This document shows positions 52,865 through 58,774 of a DNA stretch of 64,000 nt, piece by piece. Numbering within the stretch: position 1 is the first letter of the stretch; each line of letters opens with the position of its first letter. The stretch covers positions 682,001 through 746,000 of the forward strand of contig NZ_CP032543.1 of assembly GCF_003610995.1 (NCBI RefSeq). The letters run 5' to 3'. The notes beneath the pieces were generated by a model that ran no database searches, was not told where the DNA came from, and was given only the letters and a program-made list of their open reading frames with translations. The position numbers and the translations under genes were made by a program. Source of the stretch: Streptomyces griseus subsp. griseus. Its GTDB lineage: Bacteria > Actinomycetota > Actinomycetes > Streptomycetales > Streptomycetaceae.

Positions 52865-53300
52865 CGCGACGGCCGCGAGCCCCGTGGTCGCCCAGCTGTC
52901 GCGTGAGGCGGTGACGGCGGCGGCACCGGAAGGCCCCCAGGGCCGGCTCACTGATGCGGCCGCCGCGCCCTCCGGGGACCCGCGCGGCAGCGCACTCGGC
53001 GCGAGCGTGCTGCCGCCGGTCCTGGCGGGAATCGGGGGCCGGAGCGGCGAGCACCCTGCTGGGCCTGCGCGGGGCGTGGGCGGGTCACTGCTGCGCACGG
53101 TCGCGTTCTTCGACGGCAGCGCGGCGGGCGGTCCCGTCCTCACGCTCGCCCTCTGGGCGGCGCTCGGCCTGACGGCGGTGCTCGGCCTGACGGCGGTGCT
53201 CGGCCTGACGGCGGTGCTCGGCTTGACGGCGGTGCTCGTCGCGGGGAGGCGGCGTACGACCGCCGCACCCGCCGGCGGTCAGGCTCCCGACTCGCCCTGA
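52809..53300 (+). pseudogene. Collapsed membrane-protein gene (YhgE/Pip or ABC-2-like remnant)
   Basis: A plus-strand frame reads DRVVYGAVVAGPEGPHVLTA, AASPVVAQLSREAV, DPRGSALGASVLPPVLAGIG, then jumps to GGSLLRTVAFFDGSAAGG and a terminal hydrophobic helix. These are pieces of a large Streptomyces YhgE/Pip-type membrane protein, with the internal helices deleted. The 5' end is buried in tetR and no start is visible. Such exporters are often paired with a TetR regulator, so one deletion may have damaged both genes. It includes the LGLTAV tandem repeat. Confidence 0.5.
53163..53234 (+). repeat. Four-copy 18-bp tandem repeat
   Basis: CTCGGCCTGACGGCGGTG occurs four times in tandem; the fourth copy has one C-to-T change. 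It encodes LGLTAV repeated in a membrane helix of the collapsed gene. Near-identity implies recent slippage. Confidence 0.95.
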
Positions 53301-53569
53301 CCGGGGTGGTGGGCGGCGATCCCGAACCGCTGACGTTCGCCGGGGGCCGAGACGGTGGAGCCGATCGAGGAGACCGAGCTGATCACCTGCTCCTCGGCCG
53401 CCTCCTCCGCGTCCAGCCTTTCGAGCCGCTCCAGGTCGGCGGCGGAGACCAGTGCGACGAGCGGCTTGCCGTGCCGCGTCACGACGACCCGCTCACCGCC
53501 GTAGACGACGCGGTTGATCAGGTCGGCGAGCTCCGCCCGTGCTTGCGTCACCGGAATCTCGTAAGCCAT
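53279..53569 (-). CDS. Phd/YefM-family antitoxin-like protein
   Basis: A 96-aa protein with the Phd/YefM N-terminal DNA-binding fold: MAYEIPVTQARAELADLINR then VVYGGERVVVTRHGKPLVAL. The C-terminal part (LDAEEAAEEQVISSVSS) is Glu-rich and would normally bind a toxin. No RelE, YoeB or Doc gene is adjacent on either side, so it is an orphan here. It could act as a stand-alone regulator. Confidence 0.85.
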   Translation of the reverse strand: MAYEIPVTQARAELADLINRVVYGGERVVVTRHGKPLVALVSAADLERLERLDAEEAAEEQVISSVSSIGSTVSAPGERQRFGIAAHHPGQGESGA

Positions 53570-53772
53570 GGCCCCAGCTTAAGGCGCGCAGGCAGCCGCC
53601 ACGGAGCCTCGCGGCATCCGCACGACCCGACCGGCGGCAGCCCGGCAGAGCGGGTCGGGGCCACCACTCCCCCGCTTTCTGGTCACAACTCCGTCACCAA
53701 CGGAACATTCTGCTCCAGCCGGTGCACCCGACTCACTAGCGTCGCACCTCCACGAACTGCCTTGGGGGACCC

Positions 53773-54288
53773 ATGGATTGGAACGACCCGCACCACCCGT
53801 CACGCCAAGCGGACTGGGGACCGGGTGTCACCGTCCCGCCGCCGGCCCCTTCCACCGGGCCGCGTTGGGCCCGTAAGCGCGTCGTCCTCCCCGCCGCCGG
53901 TGTGCTGTTCCTGCTCGGCATCGGGATCGGCGCCACCGGCGAGCAGCCGGAGGCCGTGCAGACGGCGGCGGTGAAGGCGGAGCCGGGGCCGACGGTGACC
54001 GTCACCGTGACGGAGACGGCGAAGGTCACGGTGACGGCCACCCCGGAGCCGGCCCCGACGGTCACGAAGATCAAGAAGGTGCGGGTGACCGTCACCGCTC
54101 CGCCACCGGAGCCTGCCGCCGAGGCGCCCGACCCGGTCCACGACGATGACGACGACCCGGGTGAGGCGTACACGTACTACAAGAACTGCGCCGCCGTCCG
54201 GGCCGCGGGCGCCGCCCCCATCAGGAGGGGCGAGCCCGGGTACGCCTCTCATCTCGACCGTGACGGTGACGGAATCGGCTGCGAATAG
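53773..54288 (+). CDS. Membrane-anchored Excalibur calcium-binding domain protein
   Basis: A 171-aa protein. After a Pro-rich cytoplasmic N-terminus a single helix ([20 protein letters not shown]) spans the membrane near residues 37-56. A linker of Thr-Val repeats ([18 protein letters not shown]) follows. The C-terminal Excalibur domain has [20 protein letters not shown] and the calcium loop [10 protein letters not shown] with its paired Cys. Such domains bind calcium outside the cell; the role is not defined. A TAGCGT -10-like element lies about 35 nt upstream. Confidence 0.88.
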
Positions 54289-54434
54289 GCACCCACCGAC
54301 CCCTCCTGGATGCCGCGAACGGGAAAGCCACCGCTCTCTTCTGTACGTCCTGTACATTTTTGACGGGGCGTGAGTGCGGGGCAGGCCTGCGCCACCCCTG
54401 CCTTCCGTCGCGCATCCAGGAGAGGGGCTCCGCC

Positions 54435-55070
54435 ATGATCCGACCCGCCGTCCGCCACGTACTGCCCGAGTTCACCGAGCGCACCATGTACGGGCCCCGG
54501 ACCCAGGACCCGTACTCCAAGCTCCTCTCCGAACGGATCATCCTTCTCGGGACGCGGGTCGACGACACCGCGGCGAGCGACCTGATCGCGCAGCTCGTGC
54601 GCTTAGAGCACGCCGATCCGGACCGGCCGGTGTCGCTCTACATCAACTGCCCCGGCGGCTCGTTCGGGGCGATGGCGGCGGTCTACGACACGATGCGGTA
54701 CCTGACGTGCGACGTGGAGACCTTCTGCCTGGGGCAGGCCGACTCCTGTGCGGCCGCCCTCCTGGCGGCCGGGGCACCGGGACGGCGACATGCCCTGCCC
54801 GGCGCGCGGGTAGTCATCCAGCAACCCGCACTGGCGGAGCCGCTGCGGGGCCGGCCGTCCGACCTGGAGATCCACGCGCACGAACTGGTGCGCACCCGCG
54901 CGCTGTTCACGGCCATGCTGGTCCGCCACACGGGCCGGACCGCCGAGCGGGTCACCGCCGACAACGAACGCTCCACCATCCTCGACGCTGAGGCCGCCCG
55001 CTCCTACGGGCTGGTGGACCACGTCGTGCAGAACCGCACGCTCTCCCAGCCGCCGCACGACGTGAGGTGA
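54435..55070 (+). CDS. ClpP-like protease subunit lacking catalytic His and Asp
   Basis: A 211-aa ClpP-fold protein from ATG 54435, with GGAGAGGGG upstream. The oxyanion glycine block [18 protein letters not shown] and [14 protein letters not shown] keep the nucleophile Ser104. The position of the catalytic His (25 residues on, VVIQQP) is Gln129, and the position of the catalytic Asp reads Ser180 (ERSTILDA). It is therefore probably proteolytically inactive or a regulatory ring subunit, like ClpR. Codon 57 is TTA (54603-54605), rare in Streptomyces, so translation should depend on the bldA tRNA. A 101-aa gene follows 7 nt later. Streptomyces have several clpP paralogues; this is not the housekeeping clpP1P2 pair. 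Confidence 0.88.
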
Positions 55071-55077
55071 ACCGCTC

Positions 55078-55383
55078 ATGGAGCCACCGGAGTTCCCGCC
55101 TTTGCCCGCTCTGACCCGCGCCGAGGGCGAGTTCATCGACTGCTATCTGGCGGCCCTGGACCAGGTGGGCCGGATCAACCCCGCACACGGCGGCGACACC
55201 TACAGCGCGCTGCGGGCGGCTCAGGCCCTGGCCTCCGGGGCGGCGGCCCTGCGCGACGCGCTCGCCCTGATGCACGAGCGCGGCGAGCGGCAGATCCACG
55301 CGGCGACGCTCGTACGGGCCCTGCGGGTGCTGGACGGCGAGCGGCGGGCGGGCAGGGTCGCCGTGCCGCCCAACCCGAACTGA
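55078..55383 (+). CDS. 101-aa hypothetical protein downstream of the ClpP-like gene
   Basis: A soluble, mostly helical protein: TRAEGEFIDCYLAALDQVGR, then YSALRAAQALASGAAALRDA and a basic C-terminus ending AVPPNPN. It starts 7 nt after the ClpP-like stop, so the two are surely co-transcribed and perhaps work together. I do not recognise a family. From 55384 to 55757 I see no gene. Confidence 0.7.
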   Translation: MEPPEFPPLPALTRAEGEFIDCYLAALDQVGRINPAHGGDTYSALRAAQALASGAAALRDALALMHERGERQIHAATLVRALRVLDGERRAGRVAVPPNPN

Positions 55384-55757
55384 GCCGCGCCGCGCGCCGG
55401 GAGCGCGTCACGGGAGCGGGCCGGTCGCCGCGCCGTGCGACACGCCCGGTTCCGCGATCGATTTCCCTCGCTCGTTCGGCGTAGGCCATCACCCGCGCGA
55501 GCGACGGCTCAACTTGCGTTCGGCGTGCGGGCTGTACTCGAAATGCTCCCTTTCGTCGCTGGTACGAGGGTGTGCGCCGGGCTCGTCGGCGGGCGCGAAT
55601 CCGCCCCGTCCACCCGAACGGTTCAGTGGTGAGGAGACTCACAAATCACTGTTTCAGCTCGGAAATCCGGCACTTCGTGAGTCAAGATCCCTGGGACGAC
55701 AAGCCCCCGCCGCCGCGGCGGGGCGGTCCGGGTGGACGCCGAGTCCTGCCGCTTCCC

Positions 55758-57238: not shown

Positions 57239-57670
57239 TCAGCCCTGGACCGACACCACCCAGGGCAGCGTGATCCAGACCGTCTTGCCGCCCTCCGCCG
57301 TCGGGACGACCGTGAGCCGTCCGCCGTACTCCTTGGCCAGCGCCCGGATGATCACCATGCCGCGCCCGTTGTCCTGCCGTACGGCGGCGGGCAGCCGCTG
57401 AGGCCACCGAGGGTGACTGTCCGTCACGCCCAGACGCAGTTCCTCGTCGCGTTCCAGGCGCAGATCCACGGTGAAGGTGGGTGACTGGCCGAAGGTGTGC
57501 TGGACGGCGTTGGTGGTGAGTTCGGAGATGATCAGCCGGATGGTGTCGGCGAGATCCGTGTCCTCGGAGAGGCCCCACTCGGCCAACGTCCTGGCCACAT
57601 ATCTGCGGGCCGAGGAGACCGAGGCCGGATCGCTCGGCAGGGTGACGGTTGCTTCCTGATGGTCTGCCAT
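57239..57670 (-). CDS. Anti-sigma-like ATP-binding protein (HATPase_c, AbaA-type)
   Basis: A 143-aa GHKL-fold protein. The N-box is IISELTTNAVQHTF and the G-box DNGRGMVIIRALAKEYGG. It starts at ATG 57670, with GAAAGGGA upstream; the longer open frame has no support. This type resembles RsbW/SpoIIAB kinases but in Streptomyces often occurs beside a XRE-DUF5753 gene and a DUF397 gene, as here. It would act as a signalling partner rather than a membrane sensor. Confidence 0.88.
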   Translation of the reverse strand: MADHQEATVTLPSDPASVSSARRYVARTLAEWGLSEDTDLADTIRLIISELTTNAVQHTFGQSPTFTVDLRLERDEELRLGVTDSHPRWPQRLPAAVRQDNGRGMVIIRALAKEYGGRLTVVPTAEGGKTVWITLPWVVSVQG

Positions 57671-57773
57671 GGCGACGCCGTCCCTTTCGCGCCCTGGCCG
57701 ACCGGCAGTCGGCCAGGATGGTGCTTCGCGCCAGACTGCCACTGTTGAAGCTCGCTGTAACGATGTTCGGCCA

Positions 57774-57789
57774 AGATATGCATATATCT
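57774..57789. promoter_or_regulatory. AT-rich palindrome between HATPase and XRE genes
   Basis: AGATAT-GCAT-ATATCT is a strikingly A/T-rich inverted repeat in GC-rich DNA, midway between the two divergent starts. It may be an operator for the XRE protein or hold -10 elements for both promoters. A separate hairpin (CTGGCCGAC / GTCGGCCAG) lies at 57696-57718. Confidence 0.55.
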
Positions 57790-57913
57790 GTCGCTCGAAG
57801 CGGTGAATTCGGGCCCGCGCAACCGGGACGACGGGCACACTGACCCCCTTGCGGGACCGAACCTTGCGGTGCATGTCGGACCCGTTCCGTCCGCACAGCG
57901 CGAGGAGACCTGG

Positions 57914-58774
57914 ATGCTGCACGGCCCCGTCGTCCGACGACGGAAGCTCGGCGAGGAGTTACGGAGTCTGCGGCACGCCTCCGGACTGACCAGCCGGGAC
58001 ACCGCGCGCCTGCTCGGCTGGCACCAGTCGAAGGTGAGCCGTATCGAGACCGGAGCCAGCGGCGTCAGCCCCGGGGACGTGACGCGCCTCCTCGACGTCT
58101 ACGCGGTGCGCGACACCCAGCTGCGCGCCCTGCTCGAAGTGCTCGCCGGGTCGGCGGGCGGCGGCGGCTCGGGGTGGTGGCACGCCTACCGGGGCCTGAT
58201 CCCGCCCCAGTACCGGGACTTCATCAGCCTGGAGTCGCAGGCGAGCACGGTGCGGACCCTGGAGACCTCGGTGGTGCCGGGGCTGCTCCAGACCGCCGGT
58301 TACGCGCGGGCGGTGACCCGGGCCTCGCTGGAGGGCCTGCCGCCGGACGACCTCGACTCCCTGGTCGAGGTGCGGCTGACCCGTCAGAGGGTGCTGCGCG
58401 CGAAGCCGCCGCTGCGGTTCACCGCCGTCCTGGACGAGGCGGTGCTGCACCGGGAGGTGGGCGGGCCCGAGGTGATGCGGGATCAGCTGCACCATCTGAA
58501 CCAGGTAGCCCAACTCCCGCACGTGGAACTCCAGTTGCTGCCCTTCTCGGTCGGCGGGTATGTCGGACTCACTTCCCCTTTCGTCATCTTCTCCTTTCCG
58601 AACATTTCTGATCTGGATGTGGTCGCTCTTGACCACTTGACGAGTAGCCTCTATCTGGAGCGGAAAGAAGACCTCGACGCGTACAGCTCGGCCTTCCGCA
58701 CCTTGCAGACACACGCACTGCCGCCGGACCACTCGCTGGAGCTCGTCGCCGCGATCCGCCGCGGCTTCCGCTAA
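57914..58774 (+). CDS. XRE-family regulator with DUF5753 domain (WhiJ-like)
   Basis: A 286-aa DNA-binding protein. The HTH_31 domain occupies residues about 10-70: KLGEELRSLRHASGLTSRDT then ARLLGWHQSKVSRIETGASG. The DUF5753 domain begins YRDFISLESQASTVRTLETS and includes VPGLLQTAGYARAVTRASL, LPFSVGGYVGLTSPFVIFSF and a C-terminal LTSSLYLERKEDLDAYSSAF. ATG 57914 follows GAGGAG. It belongs to the WhiJ type, regulators of development and antibiotic production that act with a small DUF397 partner. Confidence 0.92.
   Translation: MLHGPVVRRRKLGEELRSLRHASGLTSRDTARLLGWHQSKVSRIETGASGVSPGDVTRLLDVYAVRDTQLRALLEVLAGSAGGGGSGWWHAYRGLIPPQYRDFISLESQASTVRTLETSVVPGLLQTAGYARAVTRASLEGLPPDDLDSLVEVRLTRQRVLRAKPPLRFTAVLDEAVLHREVGGPEVMRDQLHHLNQVAQLPHVELQLLPFSVGGYVGLTSPFVIFSFPNISDLDVVALDHLTSSLYLERKEDLDAYSSAFRTLQTHALPPDHSLELVAAIRRGFR

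Follow-up and report, generated by a model that had tools for sequence, protein, structure and literature searches.

A predicted non-cutting ClpP5 in Streptomyces griseus: recurrent catalytic triad loss beside a conserved partner gene and an operator-like site

The window, a 64,000-nt stretch of the genome of Streptomyces griseus subsp. griseus, encodes on its forward strand a ClpP paralogue of 211 amino acids, ClpP5 (gene clpP5, 54435..55070). The open reading frame of an uncharacterised 101-aa protein begins 7 nt past the clpP5 stop on the same strand (55078..55383); we call it the partner gene. An operator-like site, TGTACGTCCTGTACA (54342..54356, no strand assigned), lies 79–93 nt upstream of the clpP5 start. 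Farther upstream is a divergent Phd/YefM antitoxin-family gene on the reverse strand (phd, 53279..53569; PF02604, 52.1 bits). An Excalibur-domain gene (53773..54288, forward strand; PF05901) stands between phd and the site, a rare arrangement found in 1/80 and 1/80 other loci; these two sets of 80 loci overlap in part, and counts from them are not independent.

ClpP5 of the window has a full-length ClpP domain (Pfam CLP_protease, PF00574; 198.5 bits against a cut-off of 20.2, profile positions 5–181 of 182). Its HMMER alignment with Mtb ClpP2 (5dzk) runs without gaps over residues 2–204, each residue i pairing with chain residue i+6. The catalytic triad of Mtb ClpP2, which we take to be S110/H135/D186, is thereby matched with Ser104 (codon TCC, 54744..54746), Gln129 (CAG, 54819..54821) and Ser180 (TCC, 54972..54974), all on the forward strand. 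A ClpP protease requires Ser-His-Asp at these columns, and only the Ser is present here. Since the alignment is gapless, no His or Asp can shift into a triad place; D176, considered as the catalytic Asp, was rejected, as it pairs with Mtb D182 and Ser180 occupies the Asp column. The first-pass annotation was thus correct in reading a retained ClpP fold and Ser104 with Gln at the His place and Ser at the Asp place, and the shifted but equivalent His or Asp that it had named as counter-evidence did not appear. The comparison shows window ClpP5 to lack the Ser-His-Asp triad, and thus to be a predicted non-cutting subunit in this strain. Gln at the His column is common among near relatives, since 110 of the 121 closest rows (window included) read Ser-Gln-Asp. 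Ser at the Asp column is rare, with four of the 121 rows (SQS 2, SRS 1, SES 1).

The source genome has three ClpP genes: clpP5 in the window and an adjoining pair at 2.23 Mb, identified as ClpP1 and ClpP2 by gene order and tree. A quick tree of 106 proteins places the protein of the window among 81 ClpP5 rows (SH-aLRT 98) and sets ClpP5, ClpP4 and ClpP2 apart from ClpP1 and ClpP3 with support 100. The join between ClpP5 and ClpP2 has a support of only 78 in this tree, which we count against our main reading, and a smaller, careful tree neither resolves ClpP5 as one branch nor settles its link to ClpP2. Identity of the window protein is about 52–53% to ClpP2, 45–48% to ClpP4 and 42–47% to ClpP1, and a close relative (P0148) carries the source name Clp protease proteolytic subunit 5. 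From its tree place, its highest identity and that name, we classify the protein by sequence as a ClpP5 of ClpP2 type, an assignment that the first-pass annotation had not made. ClpP5 of S. lividans, the fifth ClpP homologue there, is likewise separate from the clpP1P2 and clpP3P4 pairs. The accessible text of PMC9765437 describes S. lividans clpP5 as monocistronic; in contrast, judged by gene layout, clpP5 is followed by the partner gene in 81/81 sampled loci, S. lividans being outside the sample. The accessible literature on Streptomyces clpP5, supplementary alignments excepted, yielded no mention of triad loss, the partner, the phd gene or the site, and an earlier notice of the triad is possible; nor did it yield a task for ClpP5, there counted as the fifth ClpP.

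Triad loss recurs across the genus. We sampled 101 Streptomyces genomes and defined a ClpP5-like gene by at least 57% identity; 81 genomes have one and 20 do not. Ser-His-Asp is intact in 30 of the 81 proteins, while one to three residues are lost in the other 51, in 24 combinations, and two or more are lost in 21. The Ser column holds Ser in 64 and has lost it in 17; the His column, with eight letters in all, reads Q, R, E, D, S, G or K in 43; and the Asp column is changed in 14. These columns bear on the idea that ClpP5 of the window is still a protease, using Ser104 in an unusual dyad or in substrate-assisted catalysis. The retained Ser in 64/81 and the invariant Gly columns 74–75 would fit such an enzyme, but the changes that have reached each of the three catalytic columns make it very unlikely.

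Parsimony on one quick tree gives at least 10 changes between intact and lost states, with 12 at the Ser column, 5 for His or not and 8 at the Asp column; the tree was built without the triad columns, 34 of its 103 inner branches are open, and loss and gain are not told apart. Ser-His-Asp is the probable ancestral state because ClpP1, ClpP2 and ClpP3 are intact. In a second, partly overlapping set, the triad is intact in 20 of 75 named loci (78 minus L169, L214 and L216, where clpP5 is broken; L167 and L215 of the 80 have no clpP5). As a control, ClpP1 and ClpP2 are intact in 20/20 each in the same genomes (20 of the 81, including 19 of the 51 with lost ClpP5 triads), and ClpP3 is intact in 5/5. 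The three-column comparison with housekeeping ClpP that had been proposed as a check therefore confirmed the loss and found it to be recurrent.

Streptomyces ClpP4 is, like ClpP5, a ClpP2-type subunit without the catalytic His. It has Gly at this place in 5/5 cases (L105, L106, L107, L110, L111) and in 119 of 120 ClpP4 proteins (P0243–P0362, all close relatives of one ClpP4). P0243 itself is a 331-aa protein with two ClpP-like halves from a 3-kb contig, possibly the result of a fusion or of faulty assembly. The change in ClpP4 is single and fixed, and ClpP4 is paired with ClpP3, whereas ClpP5 has many different changes and another neighbour gene. Fixed loss in ClpP4 and repeated loss in ClpP5 suggest a genus rule of catalytic loss in ClpP2-type subunits that do not belong to the housekeeping core, and this fits the division of labour published for ClpP1P2, as far as the accessible text describes it. 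Five ClpP genes are present in 21 of the 30 genomes with a kept ClpP5 triad versus 15 of the 51 with a lost one (Fisher p 0.0005, kinship ignored); an independent-pairs test of triad state against clpP3P4 had only three pairs, with kept and lost grouped by column 176.

Recurrent loss could also mean plain decay, in which a redundant ClpP5 under relaxed selection is heading for removal and the partner alone matters. Several observations lean this way: clpP5 is absent from 20 of the 101 genomes, is broken or cut beside the partner in three loci (L169, L214, L216) and is missing beside it in three more (L087, L167, L215). Relatives of the partner also occur without clpP5 in another family (L228–L230), the His column has eight letters, and mean column entropy is higher in lost lineages (0.96) than in kept ones (0.67). 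One of the 81 genes (L005, genome G062) ends ten codons early.

We estimated dN/dS by the Nei-Gojobori method for 274 close pairs. ClpP5 medians are 0.26 between two lost copies (76 pairs), 0.29 between two kept copies (128 pairs) and 0.28 for mixed pairs (70 pairs); the lost-lost median is not above the kept-kept one, and values fall below 0.5 in 75/76 and 127/128 pairs, respectively. The highest lost-lost value, 0.51, is that of the window against its nearest sampled relative (L004), a point for decay, with 0.15 for the partners of the same pair; partner dN/dS is below that of clpP5 in 239 of the 274 pairs. As gauged from codon changes, ClpP5 has diverged under purifying selection, although there are broken copies. 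With clpP5 kept beside the partner in 81 of 101 genomes, 36 of 204 columns invariant in all 81 proteins and the upstream site kept in 81/81, we consider plain decay unlikely. The non-catalytic ClpP subunits found in cyanobacteria and plastids, ClpR among them, likewise have a ClpP domain without the full triad. Compared with them by description only, ClpP5 shares the loss of the triad (51/81) in a gene that is maintained (lost-lost median above), and differs in that the loss recurs within one orthologous group and ring membership is putative.

Among the columns with the strongest loosening in lost lineages are those of the triad together with 105, 77 and 158–160, which presumably line the active site. 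Columns 48, 202, 18 and 89 loosen as well, and entropy at columns 176–180 rises from 0.28 to 0.96; we count both against our main reading. Columns 137–157, which we take to be the handle-helix region where rings meet, have entropies of 1.06 in kept and 1.19 in lost lineages, above the average of each group. Given this variable handle region and the loosened columns 176–180, kept ring contacts do not follow from the sequences; the handle region and the higher overall entropy of lost lineages likewise weigh against our main reading.

The partner gene is more constant. It lies directly downstream of clpP5 on the same strand in 81/81 genomes, 3–37 nt away (3–8 nt in 77), and no clpP5 in the sample lacks it (0/81). 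It is present in 85 of the 101 genomes; the four without clpP5 are G013, where it stands beside another ClpP2-like gene, G057, G081 and G100. In wider samples, it was found in 27 of 61 genomes from the whole family (9/17 genera) and in 22 of 246 genomes of the class, 18 of these being of the same genus. Four loci from another genus of the family (L129, L130, L131, L133) have it beside a clpP5 with the His kept. The gene pair that had been put forward for a conservation check is thus adjacent wherever clpP5 occurs in the sample. Its description as dedicated to clpP5 needs a caveat: the partner accompanies clpP5 in 81/81, and it also occurs without clpP5 in 4/85 genomes, at L167 and L215 and in another family. 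In three genomes of that actinobacterial family (L228, L229, L230), the fetched 10-kb stretches hold a partner relative and gave no ClpP match. L233, a further candidate for a partner without ClpP, was discarded for a 46% ClpP match there.

The first-pass annotation had assigned the 101-aa reading frame to no known family, and our searches agree. Pfam gave no match over cut-off (best EAD2, E 0.058), nor did NCBIfam, and PHROG and PADLOC gave no match; a PDB sequence search found no relative (best E 0.34). An AF2 model predicts three helices with moderate confidence (pLDDT 73.5, pTM 0.54), and a Foldseek search with it returned 0 matches at E 0.001 or better.

The phd gene follows the same distribution. 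It is found in 83 of the 101 genomes, namely all 81 with clpP5 plus G013 and G081, and in 0/16 genomes without the partner. It lies near clpP5 in 75/80 and 69/80 loci of the two sets, and is divergent in 146/146 measured loci (window and three B modules, described below, included), usually adjacent to clpP5. No toxin family was recognised among phd neighbours: the partner has no family match, and the others are TetR and Excalibur genes. In 148 of 152 copies, the Phd-family protein (window 53282–53569, reverse strand) carries a short, strongly conserved tail, Phe-Gly-Ile/Leu/Val-x-Ala; the tail is altered in two of the three loci without clpP5. The first-pass annotation had named neither the phd gene nor the upstream site.

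A bipartite GTAC-N4-TGTAC site lies 24–96 nt upstream of clpP5 in 81/81 genomes. Such a site occurs within 150 nt upstream of clpP5 in 81/81 versus 15 of 1680 random stretches from the same loci. TGTACA is present in 137 of 139 phd-clpP5 intergenic stretches (mononucleotide shuffles: mean 2.4, largest 7) and the fuller bipartite pattern in 144 of 146, and TGTACN4TGTACA has two copies in the source genome, one of them at clpP5. In the 23 loci with a phd-clpP5 gap above 150 bp, which include the window and some near-duplicates, the site is 46–92 nt from clpP5 and up to 1673 nt from phd. Where DNA has been inserted between the two genes, the site stays with clpP5. A scan of 53500–55600 for promoters and terminators found nothing.

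According to the accessible text of PMC7730913, the sites bound by YefM antitoxins are TGTACA cores in pairs, with a spacing of 12 bp as in yefM-yoeB. The clpP5 locus resembles these operons in its Phd/YefM-family gene and its paired site with a TGTACA core. It differs in having no recognised toxin, in carrying clpP5 and the partner downstream of the site and in the distance between the GTAC cores, 9 bp centre to centre instead of 12, which we count against our main reading.

Second modules of phd, a ClpP2-like gene with an intact triad and the partner (B modules) occur at other chromosomal places (L084, L085, L086; genomes G054 and G060 have such second ones). In the three B modules, the site is 18–19 nt from phd. 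Their ClpPs group with ClpP2 at 99/100, though grouping with ClpP5 survives an AU test (p 0.199). G013 has only a module of this second type; its old place (L264) holds phd and the site without clpP5 and the partner. The co-occurrence of phd, partner and site, together with the second modules, speaks for a three-gene unit; L264 speaks against it.

Published work on S. hawaiiensis offers a frame for these findings. In ClpP1P2, the Ser of ClpP1 cuts and that of ClpP2 is not required. The ATPases dock on ClpP2, in a pocket that contains Ser94, Tyr96 and Tyr116; at the first pocket place, ClpP1 has Tyr76 (PMC9765437, accessible text). The corresponding column 67 of ClpP5 reads Ser in 64, Ala in 9, Thr in 5, Cys in 2 and Glu in 1, and is aromatic in 0/81; it is Tyr or Phe in 19/20 ClpP1 and Ser in 20/20 ClpP2. 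Tyr69 is kept in 81/81 ClpP5. Column 89 is Phe or Tyr in 69/81 and non-aromatic in 12 of the 51 lost copies, the latter a count against our main reading. The predicted docking pocket of ClpP5 thus follows the ClpP2 pattern. If, as the accessible account has it, docking falls to ClpP2 and the Ser of ClpP1 is the sole one required, a mixed core would tolerate a ClpP2-type subunit that has lost its triad, and this tolerance would explain why the loss recurs in ClpP5.

That the active site is lost repeatedly while partner, regulator gene and site stay constant suggests that the task of ClpP5 is mostly not cutting; the partner, the Phd-type protein and the site offer three handles by which this task can be tested in laboratory strains. 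Our main reading, held tentatively and with doubt and confidence nearly in balance, is that ClpP5 may be a ClpP2-type ring subunit without cutting activity, whose role is to dock Clp ATPases or to reduce the activity of Clp, working with the uncharacterised partner under the control of a YefM-like site. Most likely it would enter Clp rings at the ClpP2 position beside a cutting ClpP1 ring, and would there either dock Clp ATPases for special substrates or lower activity by occupying the place of ClpP2. The predicted three-helix partner, probably on the same transcript as clpP5, could act as an adaptor, an assembly factor or a pore partner. Both genes would be controlled from a promoter bearing the GTAC-N4-TGTAC site, to which the Phd/YefM-type protein may bind. 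Elsewhere, ClpXP or Lon degrades antitoxins of the Phd family (PMC4963847, accessible text), so the Phd-type repressor may itself be a Clp substrate, which would close a feedback loop of the ClgR and PopR kind. The 30 of 81 ClpP5 proteins with Ser-His-Asp may still cut, a further count against the main reading, as are the broken or missing clpP5 copies beside a partner and the phd gene and site left on their own at L264. In S. cattleya, four ClpPs with ClpX shortened the half-life of RelB in E. coli; one of the four, there called ClpP3 and unpaired by locus tag, is a candidate ClpP5 only, and we count this result against the main reading too (PMC4989188, accessible text).

Non-cutting rings might instead serve as a brake. 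ClpP5 and its partner could act as a dominant-negative or plug subunit that blocks ClpP1P2, comparable to ClpP-ADEP of S. hawaiiensis, an accessory ClpP next to a ClpP1P2 core that disrupts ClpP1 complexes and inhibits ClpP1 within ClpP1P2 (PMC12607617, accessible text). That precedent, the maintenance of a gene whose triad is lost and the repressor-type site upstream of clpP5 are consistent with a plug. However, ClpP-ADEP is tied to an antibiotic cluster and is closest to ClpP1 according to its authors, in the text accessible to us, whereas window ClpP5 is nearer ClpP2 than ClpP1. A plug does not need the docking pocket that most ClpP5 proteins keep, and 30 of 81 still have the triad. We regard blocking as rather unlikely.

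A more specific arrangement, which we think quite improbable, would be a toxin-antitoxin-like switch, with a dead ClpP ring and its helper in the toxin slot. The orphan Phd/YefM protein would repress clpP5 and the partner through the site, and its tail would bind ClpP5 or the partner. Clp ATPases dock by a hydrophobic-Gly-hydrophobic loop, and the tail would perhaps sit in the ClpP docking pocket where the ATPases place this loop. If so, Clp load would set the repressor level and thus the share of dead rings, forming a proteolysis rheostat.

Codon 57 of the window clpP5 is TTA (54603..54605, forward strand), as the first-pass annotation had reported. It had taken this codon to tie ClpP5 synthesis to bldA and thereby to development, and the rarity of TTA in the window (2 codons in 39 coding-like open reading frames) is in keeping with a bldA-controlled developmental ClpP. 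A codon scan found TTA in one of 81 clpP5 genes, the window copy alone, and in 0 of 158 others in a larger, partly overlapping set without the window; a member of the bldA regulon should conserve it among orthologues. The bldA link is therefore no feature of the clpP5 system, and developmental control of this kind is highly improbable; an effect of the codon may exist in the window strain alone. Elsewhere in the window, an HTH_31/DUF5753 regulator gene adjoining a DUF397 gene (57803–58774, forward strand) contains TTA, a codon also present in 53 of 90 relatives from fetched loci. A gene for a HATPase-domain protein (57239–57922, reverse strand), perhaps of the SspH/SCO1241 kind if orthology is assumed (PMC9137472, accessible text), has TTA in 25 of 138 relatives.
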